A stretch of DNA of 64,000 nt from Prochlorococcus sp. MIT 1307. GTDB lineage: Bacteria; Cyanobacteriota; Cyanobacteriia; PCC-6307; Cyanobiaceae. Shown here piece by piece: positions 52,360-64,000 of this stretch. The stretch is taken from the NCBI RefSeq assembly GCF_034092395.1, contig NZ_CP139301.1, positions 1,178,001-1,242,000 of the forward strand, read 5' to 3'. The notes under the pieces are model-generated. The model saw only the letters and a program-made list of their open reading frames with translations. It had not been told where the DNA came from and searched no databases. The position numbers and the translations under genes are program-made. Each line of letters opens with the position of its first letter. Position 1 is the first letter of the stretch.

Positions 52360-53904
52360 TCAATTCAAACAATCAATCATTTCATTATCAATTGCTGTTT
52401 GGTCATCATTATGAATAGATATGAACAAAGAATTTGATATCGATTGCCTAGGCTGAAGGCATAGAGCCTCTTCTCTTTTTCTAACTGTTTGACTTGTATG
52501 ATCTGAGGGATTACCATAGTACAAAATTATTTTATTGTTAAGTTCTGAATTATTCTTTAATTCATCAACAACCTTGTTTCTAGCTACAGGGGTTAAATTA
52601 TCTAAATCACCAAAGTAATATTCAGGCAAATCAATAGCTAAACAGCCTTTATTACAAATATTTGATTCGCGAAGATATTCTGCAAAGCTCTTAAAATTAA
52701 TCAAAGGCATAGTCTTATTTTTTACTTTTGCATAAGATATAGCAATGTTTCCAATTAACATTAAGCTAAAGATGAGAGTCAGCAAGCGTTTAAAAAAAGA
52801 TCTATTTTCACTAACACTTAATATATAAGCAAAGAAATTCGAAATTAAAATTGTCGTAGCAGGAAGTAATACTATATAATTTCTGGGAGTAGATAGTGAA
52901 ACACGTAAATCAATCACTGCAAGAGCAGCCAAAAAAAGAAGAATTAGTGTCAATATAAAAATTGATTCATACTTTTGAATTCTAACCTTAGAGTTTGGAA
53001 TAACTTTTACATGCTTACGCTTAAAGTATAAAATAATACTAAAGGCTACAATGCTACAAGAAACAATCCATATAAATATCGATGTTTGGTCACGGTAAGC
53101 GAGCAGTGGTATGCATCCAATTAAATATTCATTTATTGTCCCCACAATAGGCAAAATAGTAATCCAACCTATCCTATTTAAATTACTATTGCCAACGTTA
53201 TGCAAGACAGGCCAAATAGAAATCAAGCATATTAAACATATGATCTTCCAACGTTTTGGCTCAACCTTGTTATCAAAATAATTTAGAATAGCCATAAGGT
53301 ATGCATATATCAAACCAAAATAATGCGTAAGAGATAATAAAATTGTTGATAGATAATAAAAAGCATTTAACCTATTTAATGCTGCTTTGTTATGTTCTAG
53401 TTTATGTGAAAATACATTTTCTCTAAGCCTTAAGAAAAAAATTGTTGTTGTTGAAGCCAAAAGAAGAAGTAGGCTATAATTACGAGATTCTTGGGAATAA
53501 TAAATAAAGCTAGGTGCTGTTAAAACTAATAGGAAGTTAAAAAACCTACGTAATGATCTAGTTCTTAAAGCTTCATGAATAAAGATACCTAATGTGCATG
53601 ATGAAAAAATAAGGCTAAGAGTTCTAGTGCTGCTTTCGAAGTTTCCAAATTGATCAATCCAAATTTTCAATAAAATTTGATATAATGGAGGGTGTGTATC
53701 TGGAAGGATCCAATTAATAAATAAATTCACCCAATTATCACTCGATGCACTTATTGAAAAAATTTCATCTCCCCAGTAGGAGTAGCCACTGAATATGCAA
53801 ATAAGAGATACACATATAAAGGCCGAACTTAAGAAAAATGTTAATAATATTATGTTATTTCTTGGATTTAAGTTCAGTATTTTCATTCTAGTATATTTAG
53901 ACAA
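52360..53904 (-). CDS. GT39-like integral membrane glycosyltransferase (GT-C)
   Basis: A 514-residue protein with about ten transmembrane helices. The first loop carries YSYWGDEIFS (Asp46-Glu47) and later DTHPPLYQILLKIW (Asp69, His71), the DE...HPPLY pattern of PMT/ArnT-type GT-C enzymes. These use polyprenyl-phosphate sugars on the outer face. Substrate and acceptor are unknown. It is the first gene of the AT-rich region downstream of tmRNA, about 125 bases from the terminator. Confidence 0.8.
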   Translation of the reverse strand: MSKYTRMKILNLNPRNNIILLTFFLSSAFICVSLICIFSGYSYWGDEIFSISASSDNWVNLFINWILPDTHPPLYQILLKIWIDQFGNFESSTRTLSLIFSSCTLGIFIHEALRTRSLRRFFNFLLVLTAPSFIYYSQESRNYSLLLLLASTTTIFFLRLRENVFSHKLEHNKAALNRLNAFYYLSTILLSLTHYFGLIYAYLMAILNYFDNKVEPKRWKIICLICLISIWPVLHNVGNSNLNRIGWITILPIVGTINEYLIGCIPLLAYRDQTSIFIWIVSCSIVAFSIILYFKRKHVKVIPNSKVRIQKYESIFILTLILLFLAALAVIDLRVSLSTPRNYIVLLPATTILISNFFAYILSVSENRSFFKRLLTLIFSLMLIGNIAISYAKVKNKTMPLINFKSFAEYLRESNICNKGCLAIDLPEYYFGDLDNLTPVARNKVVDELKNNSELNNKIILYYGNPSDHTSQTVRKREEALCLQPRQSISNSLFISIHNDDQTAIDNEMIDCLN

Positions 53905-54087: not shown

Positions 54088-55374
54088 ATGATTAAATCTA
54101 TGAAGATAATGATAAAAGGTTGGCGATACACTGCTGTTGGGTTTTCCTCAGCAATTGTCTTTGCATCGGTTCAATTACTACTCGGATTAATTTTTCCACT
54201 ATGGATTAGCAACGTATGCGGATTTTTGGCTGGGTCAATAATTAGCTATTTCGGACACGCACTTTACACATTTCGTGATGAAACAGCTGGATCAATATTT
54301 GCTCGAAGATGGCTGCTCATACAGTTCATAACCAATTTAATAATTTGCGCCGTTCTACCTTTTTTACTCAAACCAATAGGAGAAGGTTTACTCACACGAT
54401 TAATTTTAATATTTACTCCTTCAGTCCTAAATCTTTTAATATGGTCTCGTGCCGCAACATTTAGTCATAAGAGAGTCATAAATAAAAAATCATTTCCAAT
54501 AATTCATGCTGATGATCTTGGGTTAACTACTGGTATTAACAACGCAATTTTTGAACTGTATAGCATAGGGAAACTAGATAGTGCTAGCCTCATCGTAAAT
54601 GGTAAATGTGTTCTAGATGCAATCAAGCAATGGGAGAAAAATTCACATTTTCCACTATGCCTTCATCTCTGCTTAAGTGAAGGACGTGCTATTTCACCTA
54701 AAGAAAAGGTAAAAACATTGATCAATAAAGATGGTCTTCTGAAGCAAACATTTTTTAAATTATTTCTTTCTTCCTTCCTACCTAAAAGCAACAATTATCG
54801 AAAAAGGCTAGAGCAAGATCTTTATTGTGAAATAAAGGCACAGGTTAAACTATTCAAAGATTTAACCAAGCTTGATCAAGTTTCATTAGATGGACATCAG
54901 CATATACATTTGGTTCCAATCGTACTACAAGTGATTATAAAGGTCGCTAAAGAGAGTAATATAAATTGGATAAGAACAACTAAAGAGGCAATCCCAATAG
55001 GCTTAAAATTACGCCAATGGAAAGTGATTTTTAATCAAAATCGTTGGTTGAAATGGCTAATACTTCAAATATTAAGTCTAGTCAGCCAGTCTGCTATTAG
55101 GAATGCTGCATTAAAGACAAATCATAAATTTGCAGGAGTTTTATTTACAGGAAGAATGGTTGGTTATTCACTATTAAAATCTATAGATGAGCTTGAAAGT
55201 TGTGCAAGCAGTACAATATATAATAAGCCTATATTGCTTGCACATCCTTCAACTAATGCAAGTGAGGAAACATCACTTGTTGAATTATTGGATTTTCCAT
55301 TGTCAACAAAATTTGTGACATCATATTGGAGAAAAAAAGAATTCAATGAACTCAAATCTCTATACGAAAAATAA
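54088..55374 (+). CDS. GtrA-like membrane domain fused to YdjC/ChbG-type deacetylase
   Basis: A 428-residue fusion. Residues 8-125 form a GtrA-like four-helix domain (FSSAIVFASVQLLLGLIF, GFLAGSIISYFGHALYTFRD). Residues about 137-428 form a YdjC/ChbG-type carbohydrate deacetylase with the metal sites HADDLG (140-145) and DGHQHIHL (about 268-275). GtrA proteins flip polyprenyl-linked sugars; YdjC-type proteins remove acetyl groups from N-acetyl sugars. The fusion places deacetylation next to flipping. It is divergent from the GT39-like gene and adjacent to a GtrB-like gene. Confidence 0.85.
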   Translation: MIKSMKIMIKGWRYTAVGFSSAIVFASVQLLLGLIFPLWISNVCGFLAGSIISYFGHALYTFRDETAGSIFARRWLLIQFITNLIICAVLPFLLKPIGEGLLTRLILIFTPSVLNLLIWSRAATFSHKRVINKKSFPIIHADDLGLTTGINNAIFELYSIGKLDSASLIVNGKCVLDAIKQWEKNSHFPLCLHLCLSEGRAISPKEKVKTLINKDGLLKQTFFKLFLSSFLPKSNNYRKRLEQDLYCEIKAQVKLFKDLTKLDQVSLDGHQHIHLVPIVLQVIIKVAKESNINWIRTTKEAIPIGLKLRQWKVIFNQNRWLKWLILQILSLVSQSAIRNAALKTNHKFAGVLFTGRMVGYSLLKSIDELESCASSTIYNKPILLAHPSTNASEETSLVELLDFPLSTKFVTSYWRKKEFNELKSLYEK

Positions 55375-55383
55375 TATTCAAGA

Positions 55384-56382
55384 TTATTTATCTAATAAGT
55401 TTAGAAGATCTAATGTACTTTTTTCTACAATATATCGTGGCCTGCCTAAGACCTGACGATATGTCTTCCCTAAATACTCACCAAGAATCCCAAGAATAAG
55501 AAAATTAATTCCGAACAATAAATATATCGAAACGACAATAGTCGTCCATCCAGGAATTGCTTGTCCATTAAGCCAGGTTGATAAAATATTTATAATCATA
55601 AAGAAACAAACCATCAAAAGAAATATCGATAAGAGGAAAGTTATTCGAAGAGGTATTATTGAAGTACTAGTAATACCTTGCAATGCTAATCTAAACATCC
55701 TTCGCAGGCTATATTTACTAGTGCCAGCTATTCTCCTCCCTACCCTATATTTAATCGTCTCTTGATTAAAGCCTAAATTAGCTACTAACCCTCTGGCAAA
55801 GAATTCGAAATCATTATGTGAAATAAGTGCTGATGCTGCTTTAGAGGACATTAGGCGAAAGTCCCCTACTCGTGATTGAATTTTGACTCCAAAAGTATTT
55901 AATAGCTTATAAAATGTAACTGAGGAAATACGCTTAAACCATCCTACATTTCCTGACGATTCTGCATATTGTTGAGCATTTATAATTGATCTTGGATGTT
56001 CAATAACCTTTTCAATCATTAATCTGACTATTTCAGGGGGATGTTGCAAATCTGCATCCATAGTTAAAATATAATCAGAAAATGGTATTGCATGCTCAAT
56101 TCCTGCAAGCAGTGCAATCTGGTGTCCAAAATTATTGGAAAGTTTTAAGCCATGTACTTTTTTAGAAAAATCGGAAGAAGATTTGATATTACACCAAGTT
56201 CTATCTTGCGAACCATCATCTACAAATAGATAAAGTATATTAACTGTAGAAGTTAGCCCTTCTAGATTTTTGTCTAGTTCTCTTATTATTTGTGGAATAG
56301 AACCTTGTTCATTATGACAAGGAAGTATTATAGTAACAGTAAGCATGTTTGATGTTTTCTTCATTTCATTTTTCAGAATCAC
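55384..56382 (-). CDS. GtrB/DPM1-like polyprenyl-phosphate glycosyltransferase
   Basis: A 332-residue GT2 enzyme. The catalytic domain has ILPCHNEQGSIPQIIRELDK, FVDDGSQDRTW and LTMDADLQHPPEIV. Two C-terminal helices (FLLSIFLLMVCFFMIINI, IVVSIYLLFGINFLILGILG) and a GRPRYIVEKS tail match GtrB-type proteins. They load a sugar onto polyprenyl phosphate in the cytosol. It ends nine bases from the stop of the GtrA fusion, convergently, as expected of a functional pair. Confidence 0.9.
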   Translation of the reverse strand: MILKNEMKKTSNMLTVTIILPCHNEQGSIPQIIRELDKNLEGLTSTVNILYLFVDDGSQDRTWCNIKSSSDFSKKVHGLKLSNNFGHQIALLAGIEHAIPFSDYILTMDADLQHPPEIVRLMIEKVIEHPRSIINAQQYAESSGNVGWFKRISSVTFYKLLNTFGVKIQSRVGDFRLMSSKAASALISHNDFEFFARGLVANLGFNQETIKYRVGRRIAGTSKYSLRRMFRLALQGITSTSIIPLRITFLLSIFLLMVCFFMIINILSTWLNGQAIPGWTTIVVSIYLLFGINFLILGILGEYLGKTYRQVLGRPRYIVEKSTLDLLNLLDK

Positions 56383-56527: not shown

Positions 56528-57892
56528 TTAAGTTAGAAGCTTTGCATTACCGAAATCTATGAAATGCTTGATTAAAAATATTGATGATATTAAAACTGTT
56601 ATTCCATAGAAAATTTTAGGATTATACAAAATATTCCTTTGGGATTTACTTATAAACAATGAAAGAGCCACATAAAAATAAGGCTGACCGAAAACATATC
56701 TTGCCAAGCCATTCAAATAGTATGGCTGTGTAAAAAAGACAATTAAAGAATGGCTTAAAGCAAAAAATGACGTGTACCAAAATAAATAGTCTAATTGTTG
56801 TGAATTAATAATTTCATTTTGATGACTCTTTATATTTTTCTGGCTTGGTAAAAAGTTAATTCTTCGATTATTCTTTTGAGAAAATAGAGCGTACAAAATT
56901 CCTATTGGTGGATATACAAGTGTTAATGGAAGATTCTTTGAAAAACACTTCTTTAAAAGTTCAAATCTATTATGAAAAATTGAATATTCAGCTAAGTTAT
57001 TAAATATCAATAAAAAAGGATAGTAAAGTGCCCAATAGTCAATCAGGGGTGATCTAGAAGTAAAAAAATAGATCGGTCGTATACCAAATTCCTTACCCCA
57101 ACCTTTTTGAGCTAAAAATGGCTCCAAAAAACTATGTCCTTCACTTAAGCATAAGAAGCCATAAATGATATAGCCAAAGCAAGTGCCTAGCATGATTACT
57201 ATTGATAATAGAAGGTATTTATTAACAACATTTATATTGATTTGTTTATCAATAATTAATATTATTAAGAAAGATCCAACACAAGAAAAAATTGTTTGTG
57301 CAATTGTCGATCTTGTAAGGCCTATAAGTATACAAGTCACAAAGATTTGAAAATATTTAATCTTTATGGAGCTTTTCTCTTTGTTATTGGTATGAAGTAT
57401 GTCAATCATAAAACCAATTAATATCCAACTTTCTAATGAAAATAATGCCTCACTATATCCAACAAAAAAGAATATAGTCATTGGACTTAATGTATAAATC
57501 CATGTGGAAATTGATGCATATGATTGTTGCAATGCTATTCTAGAAAAAACATTCTTACTGAAATAAATAGACATTAATCCTAAAAAAGTTGATAGCAAGA
57601 TTGCAATCCTATATATGTCCGCTTGAAAGAAGCTATTGGCAAGCCTAATGCAAAATGGCCATAGAGGGTAAAATGCTGTGAGCCATTTAGTTTGATACCC
57701 ATTATTTGCAATTGATATATAGTGCTCTAGATCTAAATAACCAAATTCGGTTGTTATAGGTGAATTACCTAAGTATCGTGGAACAATTCCAGGGTTAATA
57801 AAAACAGCAAGAGGTATAATTATTAAAAACAAAGTTAGTAGTGGAAATAAAGAAGTTCCATTTAATAGGAAGCTGATTGCTTTTTTTTTCAC
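56528..57892 (-). CDS. PIG-V-like mannosyltransferase-family membrane protein
   Basis: A 454-residue protein with about ten transmembrane helices. Near the N-terminus is DLEHYISIANNGYQTKW (Asp54, His57) then AFYPLWPFCIRL, the pattern of PIG-V family GT-C enzymes (DxxHYxxIAxxGY...FYPL). Sugar and acceptor are unknown. It is on the same strand as the GtrB-like gene upstream of it, with a 145-base gap. Confidence 0.75.
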   Translation of the reverse strand: MKKKAISFLLNGTSLFPLLTLFLIIIPLAVFINPGIVPRYLGNSPITTEFGYLDLEHYISIANNGYQTKWLTAFYPLWPFCIRLANSFFQADIYRIAILLSTFLGLMSIYFSKNVFSRIALQQSYASISTWIYTLSPMTIFFFVGYSEALFSLESWILIGFMIDILHTNNKEKSSIKIKYFQIFVTCILIGLTRSTIAQTIFSCVGSFLIILIIDKQININVVNKYLLLSIVIMLGTCFGYIIYGFLCLSEGHSFLEPFLAQKGWGKEFGIRPIYFFTSRSPLIDYWALYYPFLLIFNNLAEYSIFHNRFELLKKCFSKNLPLTLVYPPIGILYALFSQKNNRRINFLPSQKNIKSHQNEIINSQQLDYLFWYTSFFALSHSLIVFFTQPYYLNGLARYVFGQPYFYVALSLFISKSQRNILYNPKIFYGITVLISSIFLIKHFIDFGNAKLLT

Positions 57893-58302: not shown

Positions 58303-59727
58303 GTGAGTATTCCTTGGCTATTTTTTTTTATTGGTACTTTTGTTTATAGTGGGGCAGTCAGCCTGAGGCATTATTGGTTTCAAACTAGTGCTTGGGATTT
58401 AGGAATATTTGATCAGGCAATTTATCTGATTTCAAAAGGGTTAACACCAGAAAGCTCTTTACTTGGGTTCCATATATTAGGCGACCACGGTGCTCTAGTT
58501 TTATATCCCTTGGGATGGCTTTATTCACTTTTCCCGTCGGTATTTTTACTCTTCGTAGTGCAAGGTTCAGTCCTTGCAAGTTCTGTGTTTCCATTGGCTA
58601 AATTAGCAAAGCTAAAGAGATTATCTGAATCATCACTGATTGCTAGCTTATCTGCTCTGATGCTATACCCAGTGGTATTTAATACTGCAATATTTGACTT
58701 TCATCCTGAGGTCCTAGCTTTTCCGTTAATTTTAGAGTCCTTAGTATTAATACAAAGTCGAAAGTCAAAACATAATTTCAAGATAATAATTTATATGCTA
58801 CTTTCTCTAACATGCAAAATCAATATATCCTTTCTTGTCTTAGGAATTGGAGGTTGGCTTTTAATTAAAAGACGAAAAAAATTAGGTTTGATATTATCCT
58901 TTCTTAGCTGTATTTGGTTTTTGCTAATTGGCGGGCTTTTAATTCCTTCGTTTGGTGGAGATAATGCAAATATTGCACGTCAAGCTGGAAAGTTTGGACT
59001 TGATCGTAACTCTATATTTAATATCGAACAAATACCCTCAATAATAATTCAATTGCTTAAACAAACCCTATCTATGCAGAATTTAATATACATATGCTTG
59101 TTAGTACTACCAGTCATATATTTACTTTTACATAAACATAGAATTAGATTATTAGCAAGTATGACACCATTCGTACCTTTATTAATACTTAATTTATGTG
59201 CTACGGCTCCAACGATGAAAGATCTTGTTCATCATTATTCACTTTTTATTGTACCTTTTATAGCTGTACAAGTAGTAAGTAGCCTGTCCGAAAGTGATGA
59301 GGGAATATATGCTTACCCTAATTGGATGAGTCGAAAAACTTCAAAGATTATCCTCGGATGGTCAGTGCTGACATTTATAATTTTCTCACGTTTAACATTT
59401 TATGTGGGTCCATTCCAAGAAAGGCTAGATACTGCTCATAATAGAAGAGAAGCCTTGAATTTAATAAATAAAGAGGCAAGCGTACTAACAACTAACGACT
59501 TAGTCCCACATTTATCAGCCCGTAGAGTTATAGTTTCTACAGGTCAAGATATAAAAAACTTTGAAAGATTTGATCAAGTACTATTAGATTTAAAATATCC
59601 AGGATGGAATTCAACAACTAAACAACTCAAAAATATTTCAAAGCAACTTAATCTTAGTAGCAACTGGTCTACTAAATATAATAAAGGTTCTGTTCGTCTA
59701 TATGACAACTTAAGTGCTTCACAATGA
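58303..59727 (+). CDS. DUF2079-family membrane protein (putative GT-C)
   Basis: A 474-residue protein with many transmembrane helices, starting with GTG at 58303. The N-terminal third reads LRHYWFQTSAWDLGIFDQAI and LLGFHILGDHGALVLYPLGW, matching DUF2079, a family related to membrane glycosyltransferases. Like the other two membrane proteins here it has acidic residues (WDLGIFDQ) near the first loop. It probably acts on the same carrier-lipid pathway; this is inference. Confidence 0.75.
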   Translation: MSIPWLFFFIGTFVYSGAVSLRHYWFQTSAWDLGIFDQAIYLISKGLTPESSLLGFHILGDHGALVLYPLGWLYSLFPSVFLLFVVQGSVLASSVFPLAKLAKLKRLSESSLIASLSALMLYPVVFNTAIFDFHPEVLAFPLILESLVLIQSRKSKHNFKIIIYMLLSLTCKINISFLVLGIGGWLLIKRRKKLGLILSFLSCIWFLLIGGLLIPSFGGDNANIARQAGKFGLDRNSIFNIEQIPSIIIQLLKQTLSMQNLIYICLLVLPVIYLLLHKHRIRLLASMTPFVPLLILNLCATAPTMKDLVHHYSLFIVPFIAVQVVSSLSESDEGIYAYPNWMSRKTSKIILGWSVLTFIIFSRLTFYVGPFQERLDTAHNRREALNLINKEASVLTTNDLVPHLSARRVIVSTGQDIKNFERFDQVLLDLKYPGWNSTTKQLKNISKQLNLSSNWSTKYNKGSVRLYDNLSASQ

Positions 59728-61786: not shown

Positions 61787-64000
61787 ATGGAAGATATTTC
61801 CTACAAGAAAATATTAAAAGTAGACAAGTCTATAATGAATTTCTGCATCGAAAAAAATAAAACTGTTGCAGATGCAATTCAGGCATTTTTTGCTAGCAAG
61901 GGGCTACCTCTAATAGTAATAAACGCAAGTTACGAATTGATAGGGTCCTTGAGCAATGGAGATATAAGAAAATTTCTTAGTGATCCAAAATCAAAAATAA
62001 CTGATCCCATATCGAAGGCTTTAAATAGAAGTCCACATTACGCATTTGATACAGATGATATTAGTGTCGTAAAGCATGAGCTTTCTACAGAAAAAACTCG
62101 TCTTGTTCCAATTATAACTAAGAATAGAAAAGTAATATCAATAGCATATCTTACAGATATAAGCTTAAATATTAACCAGAAAGATATAACATATCAGAAT
62201 AATTTGATCTACCTAATAGCTGAAATAGGTGTTAATCATAATGGCAATCTCAAAGAAGCCTATGAATTAGTCGATGCTGCTGTGGAAGCTAATTTTGATG
62301 CTGTGAAATTACAATTTAGATCTAATTCTACCTACTCCAATGTCAAAGAGACAGGTAATATTGATCTTGGAACAGAATATATTCTAGAAGAGCTTAAAAG
62401 GACATCATTAAATAGTGAGGAAGAAAAGAAACTATGTAGATATATACGTTCTAAGCAAATAGACTTTATTGGTACTCCTTTTGATGATGATGCTTTGGAG
62501 CGTTTATATAGCTATCAACCTGATGCGATAAAAATTGCATCTTGTGATTTAACTAACCATTCACTTCTCAAAAACTGTGCCAATAAAAATCTTCCTTTAA
62601 TAATAAGTACAGGCATGTCCAATGAGACAGAAATTATTCAAACAAAACAATATCTTACAGAACTGGAAGTTGATCACGCGTTTCTACATTGTAATTCAAC
62701 CTACCCTTCTCCAGTAGAGGATGCACGTTTAAAATATATAGGTCGCCTCGCTTATATAACTAATGCTATTTCAGGTTACTCATCACATGATGGGAACAAG
62801 TATATACCTCTTGCAGCAATCGGTGCTGGTGCAAAAATAATAGAATTGCACATAACAAAAGATAAAAAGGCTAAAGGAACTGACCATGCTGCTTCTTTAG
62901 TCATAGACGAACTAAAAAGCTTTGTGAAGTCAGCCAGGTTGATAGCAAAAGCACTAGGAAGTAGTAATCCTCGAGTACCTACACAGGGAGAGTTAATCAA
63001 CAAAGTATCTCTAGGTAAAAGTCTATGCTACAAAAGAAACCTTAAGAAAGGTACGATAATAAATACTGAGAAAGATTTCATTCTTAGATCCCCTGGTGAT
63101 GGCATAACATCAACCAGATTAAATGAGTTTATAAATAAGAAGTTAACTAAGGATGTAAATTATCTAGATAAAGTTGATTTTACAGACTTTGAAAATCTAG
63201 TAAATCTTTCTACTAACATTAGAAAAGAGCTTCAAGATGATCAAAGGAAGTCTCTGTCACAGTTCGAATGGGGAGTACCAGTAAGATACCGTGATATGGA
63301 AGAGATGATCAGCTTATTTAAGCCACCATTAATTGAAATTCATTTAAGCTCCAAAGACCTAGGCTTCCCCTTAGAGAACCTGAACCATAAATATATGAAA
63401 AATAAATCGATTATATTACATGCAATAGAACAATATCATGATGGTTTTATTCTAGATCTTGCCTCTAATCGTCAAGATATTATAGACGAAAGTTTTCTTC
63501 GCATCAATGAATTAAATGAACATGCTAAGAAGATCAATACTCTTTTCCAACCTAAACAGAAAATTAAGATTGTAATGAATTGCGGAGGATTTAGTAGAAC
63601 TAATTTTTTAAATAAAGAGGAAGTTCAACAAAGAGAAGTGTTGCTAATTGATAATTTAATCTTAGCTAAGAATAAACTCTCTGAATTTGAAATATTACCT
63701 CAATCTATGCCTCCTTTTCCATGGCATCAAGGAGGACGTTCTTACCACAACCTGCTCCGGTCAACAGAGTCTCTCATAAGCCTCAATCAACAAACTGGGC
63801 TAAACATATGCCTTGATTTTTCACATACATACATGGATTGCTTATATACCAAATGCGACTTTTATCAAGCATTAGAAAGTTTAATGCCAATAACATCACA
63901 TCTACATATTTCAGATAGTAATTCCTCATCCAATGAGGGATTGAATATAGATGAAGGAAGTATCGATTTTGAAAATGTTTTTAACATCATTCTGAATAAA
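61787..64000 (+). CDS. Multidomain NeuB-type synthase: CBS pair, NeuB, SAF, TIM barrel (3' partial)
   Basis: A continuous frame of 738 codons from ATG at 61787 runs off the window. Residues 1-130 form a CBS pair of the type linked with sugar-nucleotide enzymes (ELIGSLSNGDIRKFL). Residues about 140-390 are a NeuB synthase (LIAEIGVNHNGNLKEAYELV from residue 143, IISTGMSN, FLHCNSTYPSP at 299-309). Residues about 408-450 look like the SAF domain (GKSLCYKRNLKKGT). From residue 493 a TIM barrel like sugar-phosphate isomerases (FEWGVPVRYRDMEEMI ... HLHISDSN) follows. NeuB-type enzymes condense a hexosamine with phosphoenolpyruvate to make nonulosonic acids. Confidence 0.85.
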   Translation, partial: MEDISYKKILKVDKSIMNFCIEKNKTVADAIQAFFASKGLPLIVINASYELIGSLSNGDIRKFLSDPKSKITDPISKALNRSPHYAFDTDDISVVKHELSTEKTRLVPIITKNRKVISIAYLTDISLNINQKDITYQNNLIYLIAEIGVNHNGNLKEAYELVDAAVEANFDAVKLQFRSNSTYSNVKETGNIDLGTEYILEELKRTSLNSEEEKKLCRYIRSKQIDFIGTPFDDDALERLYSYQPDAIKIASCDLTNHSLLKNCANKNLPLIISTGMSNETEIIQTKQYLTELEVDHAFLHCNSTYPSPVEDARLKYIGRLAYITNAISGYSSHDGNKYIPLAAIGAGAKIIELHITKDKKAKGTDHAASLVIDELKSFVKSARLIAKALGSSNPRVPTQGELINKVSLGKSLCYKRNLKKGTIINTEKDFILRSPGDGITSTRLNEFINKKLTKDVNYLDKVDFTDFENLVNLSTNIRKELQDDQRKSLSQFEWGVPVRYRDMEEMISLFKPPLIEIHLSSKDLGFPLENLNHKYMKNKSIILHAIEQYHDGFILDLASNRQDIIDESFLRINELNEHAKKINTLFQPKQKIKIVMNCGGFSRTNFLNKEEVQQREVLLIDNLILAKNKLSEFEILPQSMPPFPWHQGGRSYHNLLRSTESLISLNQQTGLNICLDFSHTYMDCLYTKCDFYQALESLMPITSHLHISDSNSSSNEGLNIDEGSIDFENVFNIILNK

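Follow-up and report, generated by a model that had tools for sequence, protein, structure and literature searches.

A GtrA–YdjC fusion protein of picocyanobacteria as a candidate step in a carrier-lipid amino-sugar pathway

Introduction

What would a protein do that joins a GtrA domain and a YdjC/ChbG-type deacetylase in one chain, and what sugar would pass through it? Such a protein is encoded by Prochlorococcus sp. MIT 1307 in a 64,000-nucleotide stretch of contig NZ_CP139301.1 (hereafter the window, by which we mean that whole stretch), next to a gene for a GtrB-like enzyme. Here we describe the architecture, predicted active site, distribution and gene neighbourhood of the fusion, weigh several readings of its function and propose a place for it in the assembly of a surface glycan.

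Results

The fusion (54088..55374, plus strand) is a protein of 428 amino acids in which a GtrA half with four transmembrane helices (residues 2–131; 54088..54480, plus strand) is followed by a YdjC/ChbG-type deacetylase half (residues 133–428; 54484..55371, plus strand). Both families are matched within the single open reading frame: PF04138 (GtrA) over residues 13–94 (E 2.7e-07, 31.2 bits against a cut-off of 26.1) and PF04794 (YdjC) over residues 138–424 (E 1.7e-40, 140 bits against 29.7, profile positions 3–257 of 266). The AlphaFold model (mean pLDDT 92.3, pTM 0.85) places long helices at residues 2–33, 38–65, 73–93 and 101–131 and a barrel from residue 138 onwards, and so shows all four GtrA helices, to residue 131, where PF04138 covers 13–94 only. 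Comparison of the YdjC half with solved folds using VIA-align gave Z scores of 23.8 to 2i5i (EF3048) and 23.5 to ChbG (7vi8), and the barrel scored about 21.5 against CmCBDA, which has been solved with Mn or Ni. No sequence relative of the GtrA part was found in the PDB; from its membership of the GtrA family, this half is a predicted lipid-sugar flippase. These data confirm that the protein is a ChbG/HpnK-type (YdjC) deacetylase behind a four-helix GtrA domain. The even number of helices, the basic N-terminus and the basic linker suggest that the barrel is cytoplasmic.

The earlier note on this DNA had proposed looking for the same fusion in other genomes, and it is indeed there: a full-length fusion occurs in 44 of 201 genomes of the family, the window's own counted, with homologues at 35–50% identity, which rules out a frame artefact as its source. 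Carriers include Synechococcus WH7803, RCC307, UW140 and MU1642, several Prochlorococcus single-cell genomes, an ETNP Prochlorococcaceae MAG, Cyanobium and Vulcanococcus. Contig searches for relatives needed an alignment as query, the window protein used as a single sequence giving no match. Across 386 searched genomes of the phylum, the matches listed outside the family had essentially the YdjC part alone, mostly in frames of about 300 amino acids. Within cyanobacteria, the fusion thus appears to be limited to picocyanobacteria, as far as they have been sampled. In a phylogenetic tree, fusions are kept across two deep clades, and that of the window nests inside the Prochlorococcus fusion clade.

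Five residues of the deacetylase half are invariant: D142 and D143 (54511..54516, plus strand), the predicted catalytic base and a predicted metal ligand; H193 (54664..54666, plus strand), a predicted ligand that aligns with a histidine of ChbG; H270 in the motif DGHQHxH (54895..54897, plus strand), a predicted ligand that aligns with SHHHVH of ChbG; and H386 of the HP motif (55243..55245, plus strand). All five are unchanged in 43 of 43 fusion proteins, including that of the window, and in 33 of 33 members of a sequence set that includes Proteobacteria. By this alignment, D143, H193 and H270 would form an Asp/His/His metal site like that of ChbG. Loss of these ligands, which the earlier note had named as grounds for giving up its idea, is therefore not what we see.

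The GtrB-like gene of the window (55384..56382, minus strand) encodes a predicted polyprenyl-phosphate sugar synthase, with a GT2 domain (PF00535) and C-terminal transmembrane helices; it is convergent with the fusion, and 9 bp separate the ends of the two genes. Among solved structures, Synechocystis GtrB, sll0501 (5EKP), comes closest, matching nearly the full length at E 5e-47, with ArnC next; the protein carries a DxD motif (DADLQHPPE). A GtrB lies tail to tail with the fusion in 67 of 68 loci (some genomes are counted twice, being read from two collections), the two ends either abutting or, more usually, overlapping by anything from a few bases to some tens. The co-occurrence with GtrB on which the earlier note had staked its proposal is thus close to universal. 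Most genomes carry the pair at one usual site, between icd and either the heme-oxygenase/bilin block or sugar-transferase genes, all identified from sequence, so that the two genes behave as a unit.

This setting bears on two readings in which the deacetylase would act outside the assembly of a carrier-linked sugar. The first is that the fusion serves the catabolism of chitin oligosaccharides, as ChbG does; the solved folds closest to the barrel include ChbG, and use of chitin or chitosan has been predicted for some picocyanobacteria (PMC11851481). This reading is very improbable, given that the protein is fused to four membrane helices, lies almost always beside GtrB, sits in a glycan island or beside icd, and reaches 76 bits with the NCBIfam model for chitin disaccharide deacetylase, whose cut-off is 227. 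The second is that the YdjC half deacetylates another glycosylated lipid in the manner of HpnK, which is its best NCBIfam match (E 5e-34) and which acts on N-acetylglucosaminyl bacteriohopanetetrol, BHT-GlcNAc (PMC12583986). HpnK belongs to the same YdjC superfamily and deacetylates a lipid-linked GlcNAc, but its substrate is a hopanoid; the match reaches 117.9 bits against a cut-off of 232.6, no squalene-hopene cyclase match was found in the window's genome, and the constant partner of the fusion is GtrB rather than HpnI or HpnJ. We regard this reading, too, as highly unlikely.

The pair in the window turned out to be an atypical one. Fusion-partner GtrBs form a single clade (support 100/100) to which the GtrB of the window does not belong: it is 31–35% identical to them, where identity within the clade is 60–70%; its placement inside the clade is rejected (AU p 6.6e-5); and its nearest relatives are GtrBs from loci without YdjC. 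We considered that it might be a fast-evolving orthologue or a mosaic of the usual partner, and rejected this on the AU result and because most of its segments are nearer to other types, with the proviso that its very long branch may mislead; the tail-to-tail position, which is kept, leaves open the reading of a diverged partner. No copy of the usual GtrB type was found elsewhere in the genome, and neither the fusion nor a GtrB occupies the usual place between icd and ho1 there, so the fusion has been relocated into a glycan island, beside a GtrB of another type or a partner diverged beyond recognition.

The GtrA half of the window's protein also has features of its own. GtrA residues H25 and L29, kept in 42 of 43 relatives, are F and Q here, and the half groups with a stand-alone GtrA of a genome of the same genus, G006 (support 96/87), where GtrA and GtrB occur with the PIG-V-like gene known from the window and no deacetylase. 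The GC content, 0.38–0.46 upstream, falls to 0.29–0.35 from 52 kb of the window on, right after a gene for an rRNA methyltransferase-like protein, consistent with the low-GC stretch being a variable surface-glycan island. G006 carries a different glycan gene set beside the same rRNA methyltransferase-like gene. The same low-GC island includes an open reading frame of CBS, NeuB and TIM-barrel type (61787–64000, plus strand, running off the end of the window) for a nonulosonic (sialic-like) acid synthase. Elsewhere in the genome (L032:8263–12581; contig C1 about 1145262–1149580), a GT2–GtrA fusion of DPMS–GtrA type (368 aa) lies between two multi-spanning GT-C candidates and is a second carrier-sugar system.

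Three genomes bear on whether deacetylation is a fixed step: G006 and G157 have the GtrA half only, and G147 has stop codons within the YdjC part, while all three retain GtrB. Because GtrA and GtrB are kept there without a working deacetylase, deacetylation looks like an optional, tailoring step. The same genomes favour a reading in which GtrA and GtrB simply handle a neutral sugar, for instance glucose, with a YdjC half that is accessory or decaying and has little role in the window's strain. The nearest relatives of the window's GtrB, which are not associated with YdjC, lend this reading further weight and make the sugar less certain here than for the family as a whole; it may be something other than a HexNAc. 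Decay, however, would not keep five active-site residues intact in every fusion protein, the window's among them, nor are fusions conserved over two deep clades what it would lead one to expect. We think a neutral-sugar system with a little-used deacetylase rather unlikely, though possible, most of all for the window's strain.

A GT-C transferase beside the pair, a neighbour that the earlier note had proposed to check for, is found in only some genomes. Among fusion genomes, a PMT/PMT_2 gene beside the YdjC and GtrB pair was seen in G110 only; elsewhere there are other multi-spanning candidates, three of them in the window: firstly, a protein with a DE...HPPLY motif (52360..53904, minus strand), with no Pfam match, whose HPPLY region aligned with a PMT_2 set (hhalign 72%); secondly, a PIG-V-like protein (56528..57892, minus strand; PF04188 E 3e-4, below the cut-off), a gene that also adjoins GtrA and GtrB in G006; thirdly, a DUF2079 membrane protein (58303..59727, plus strand; PF09852 E 2e-71). 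DUF2079 adjoins the pair in RCC307 and in Vulcanococcus-type loci, and of the 44 fusion genomes 42 have the family, compared with 63 of the other 157 (Fisher 4e-12, uncorrected for kinship). Profile comparison of DUF2079 with PMT_2 gave 43%, structure prediction from four sequences a pLDDT of 40, and a literature search no paper on the family. At four loci in genomes without the fusion (L175, L178, L179 and L180), another type of GtrB lies beside DUF2079, a hint that GtrB in picocyanobacteria commonly has DUF2079 as its transferase partner.

With respect to the acceptor, no match to LpxK was found in 19 of 20 fusion genomes tested, the window's included, which makes a lipid A phosphate an improbable acceptor. 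Marine Synechococcus lipid A has been reported as phosphate-free; the LPS data of the same paper include no free amino sugar beyond minor glucosamine, a point against an amino-sugar pathway (PMC4515613). LpxK is present in one tested fusion genome, G110; DUF2079 is missing there, and at its locus (L079:8322–13064) a PMT-type GT-C gene overlaps the fusion on the same strand. This pattern fits a transferase that changes with the acceptor, a hint from one genome. The same locus also encodes a second PMT-type protein and a GT2–GtrA fusion.

In bacteria other than picocyanobacteria, 38 of 57 YdjC relatives lie no more than 1 kb from a GtrB. Herminiimonas and Psychrobacter have PMT_2, gtrB, gtrA and ydjC together and unfused; in Francisella noatunensis, YdjC is accompanied by an ArnT-like gene (E 1e-66) and a fragment of GtrB; and a locus of a Bordetella MAG (L154) has GtrB, YdjC and PMT_2. 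An uncultured bacterium (L119:7034–9242) encodes a fusion in reverse order, with YdjC (residues 3–280) before GtrA (298–412), directly downstream of GtrB; it arose independently of the picocyanobacterial one. With the domains fused twice independently and the gene sets recurring, the best reading is that deacetylase, flippase and loader are functionally coupled. Two deltaproteobacterial loci (L116:1649–3445 and L124:7227–8843) encode GT2–YdjC fusions, perhaps a loader and a deacetylase in one chain.

Discussion

Several known systems resemble the one encoded by the fusion and its neighbours. In the ArnC–ArnD–ArnEF–ArnT pathway for Ara4N, the sugar loses its formyl group while on the carrier, ahead of flipping and transfer, much as we propose for the acetyl group here; ArnD comes from another deacylase family, and the Arn flippase from another family than that of the fusion. 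The FlmF2–NaxD–FlmK system of Francisella, whose NaxD is also found in Acinetobacter, shares with the proposed pathway a GT2 loader, a GT-C enzyme and a YdjC-family deacetylase for a HexNAc on undecaprenyl phosphate, and the Francisella noatunensis locus described above is of this kind. The substrate of NaxD is undecaprenyl phosphate carrying N-acetylgalactosamine (PMC10927774). Francisella NaxD, however, is unfused to GtrA and its acceptor is lipid A, whereas the picocyanobacterial fusion genomes mostly lack LpxK. In Bordetella, the addition of glucosamine to lipid A phosphates requires lgmA, lgmB and lgmC (PMC4993483); the Bordetella MAG locus with YdjC, GtrB and PMT_2 is of this LgmA–D kind, which differs from the fusion in having separate genes and a lipid A phosphate as acceptor. 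GtrA/GtrB/Gtr O-antigen glucosylation and GtrA-dependent extracellular glycosylation share the GtrB-type synthase, the GtrA flippase and the GT-C enzyme (PMC13390465) but, unlike the fusion, have no deacetylase step. A literature search found no paper that names GtrA together with YdjC. The earlier note's view that no such pathway has been described in picocyanobacteria therefore needs dividing: what is new is the fusion and the group of hosts, and the logic of the pathway has precedents in Francisella, Acinetobacter and Bordetella.

Taken together, we think it probable, if well short of certain, that the fusion supplies the middle step in a carrier-lipid amino-sugar pathway. GtrB would load a HexNAc, most likely GlcNAc, onto undecaprenyl phosphate at the cytoplasmic face of the membrane; the YdjC barrel, tethered at that face by the four GtrA helices, would deacetylate it by means of a metal site, to judge from its family and its intact ligands; the attached GtrA half, like others of its family, would flip the free-amine lipid; and on the outer side a GT-C enzyme would attach the amino sugar to a glycan of the cell surface. 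The best candidate for this transferase in most picocyanobacteria would be DUF2079, with the PIG-V-like and HPPLY-type proteins also adjacent in the window, and in the window's genome the pathway would run through a relocated pair with a different GtrB type. That a carrier-linked N-acetyl sugar is deacetylated before transfer, as the earlier note had allowed, is what the relatives NaxD and LgmC do. For the fusion itself, our analysis shows the architecture, how well it is conserved, the pairing with GtrB and the intact site; the chemistry, the sugar and the acceptor we infer. More tentatively, and at rather less than even odds, deacetylation and flipping may be coupled in the one polypeptide such that mainly deacetylated lipid is exported, to a new glycan acceptor, in cells whose lipid A lacks the usual phosphate. 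The YdjC systems characterised so far modify lipid A, in Bordetella its phosphates, which are reportedly missing in marine Synechococcus, implying a different acceptor here.

A free amine would place a positive charge on the surface of Prochlorococcus and Synechococcus, which rank with the most abundant phototrophs, and surface charge may in turn bear on phage adsorption, grazing and metal binding. The fusion is, moreover, a convenient single protein with which to ask whether a GtrA flippase picks its cargo by amine state.
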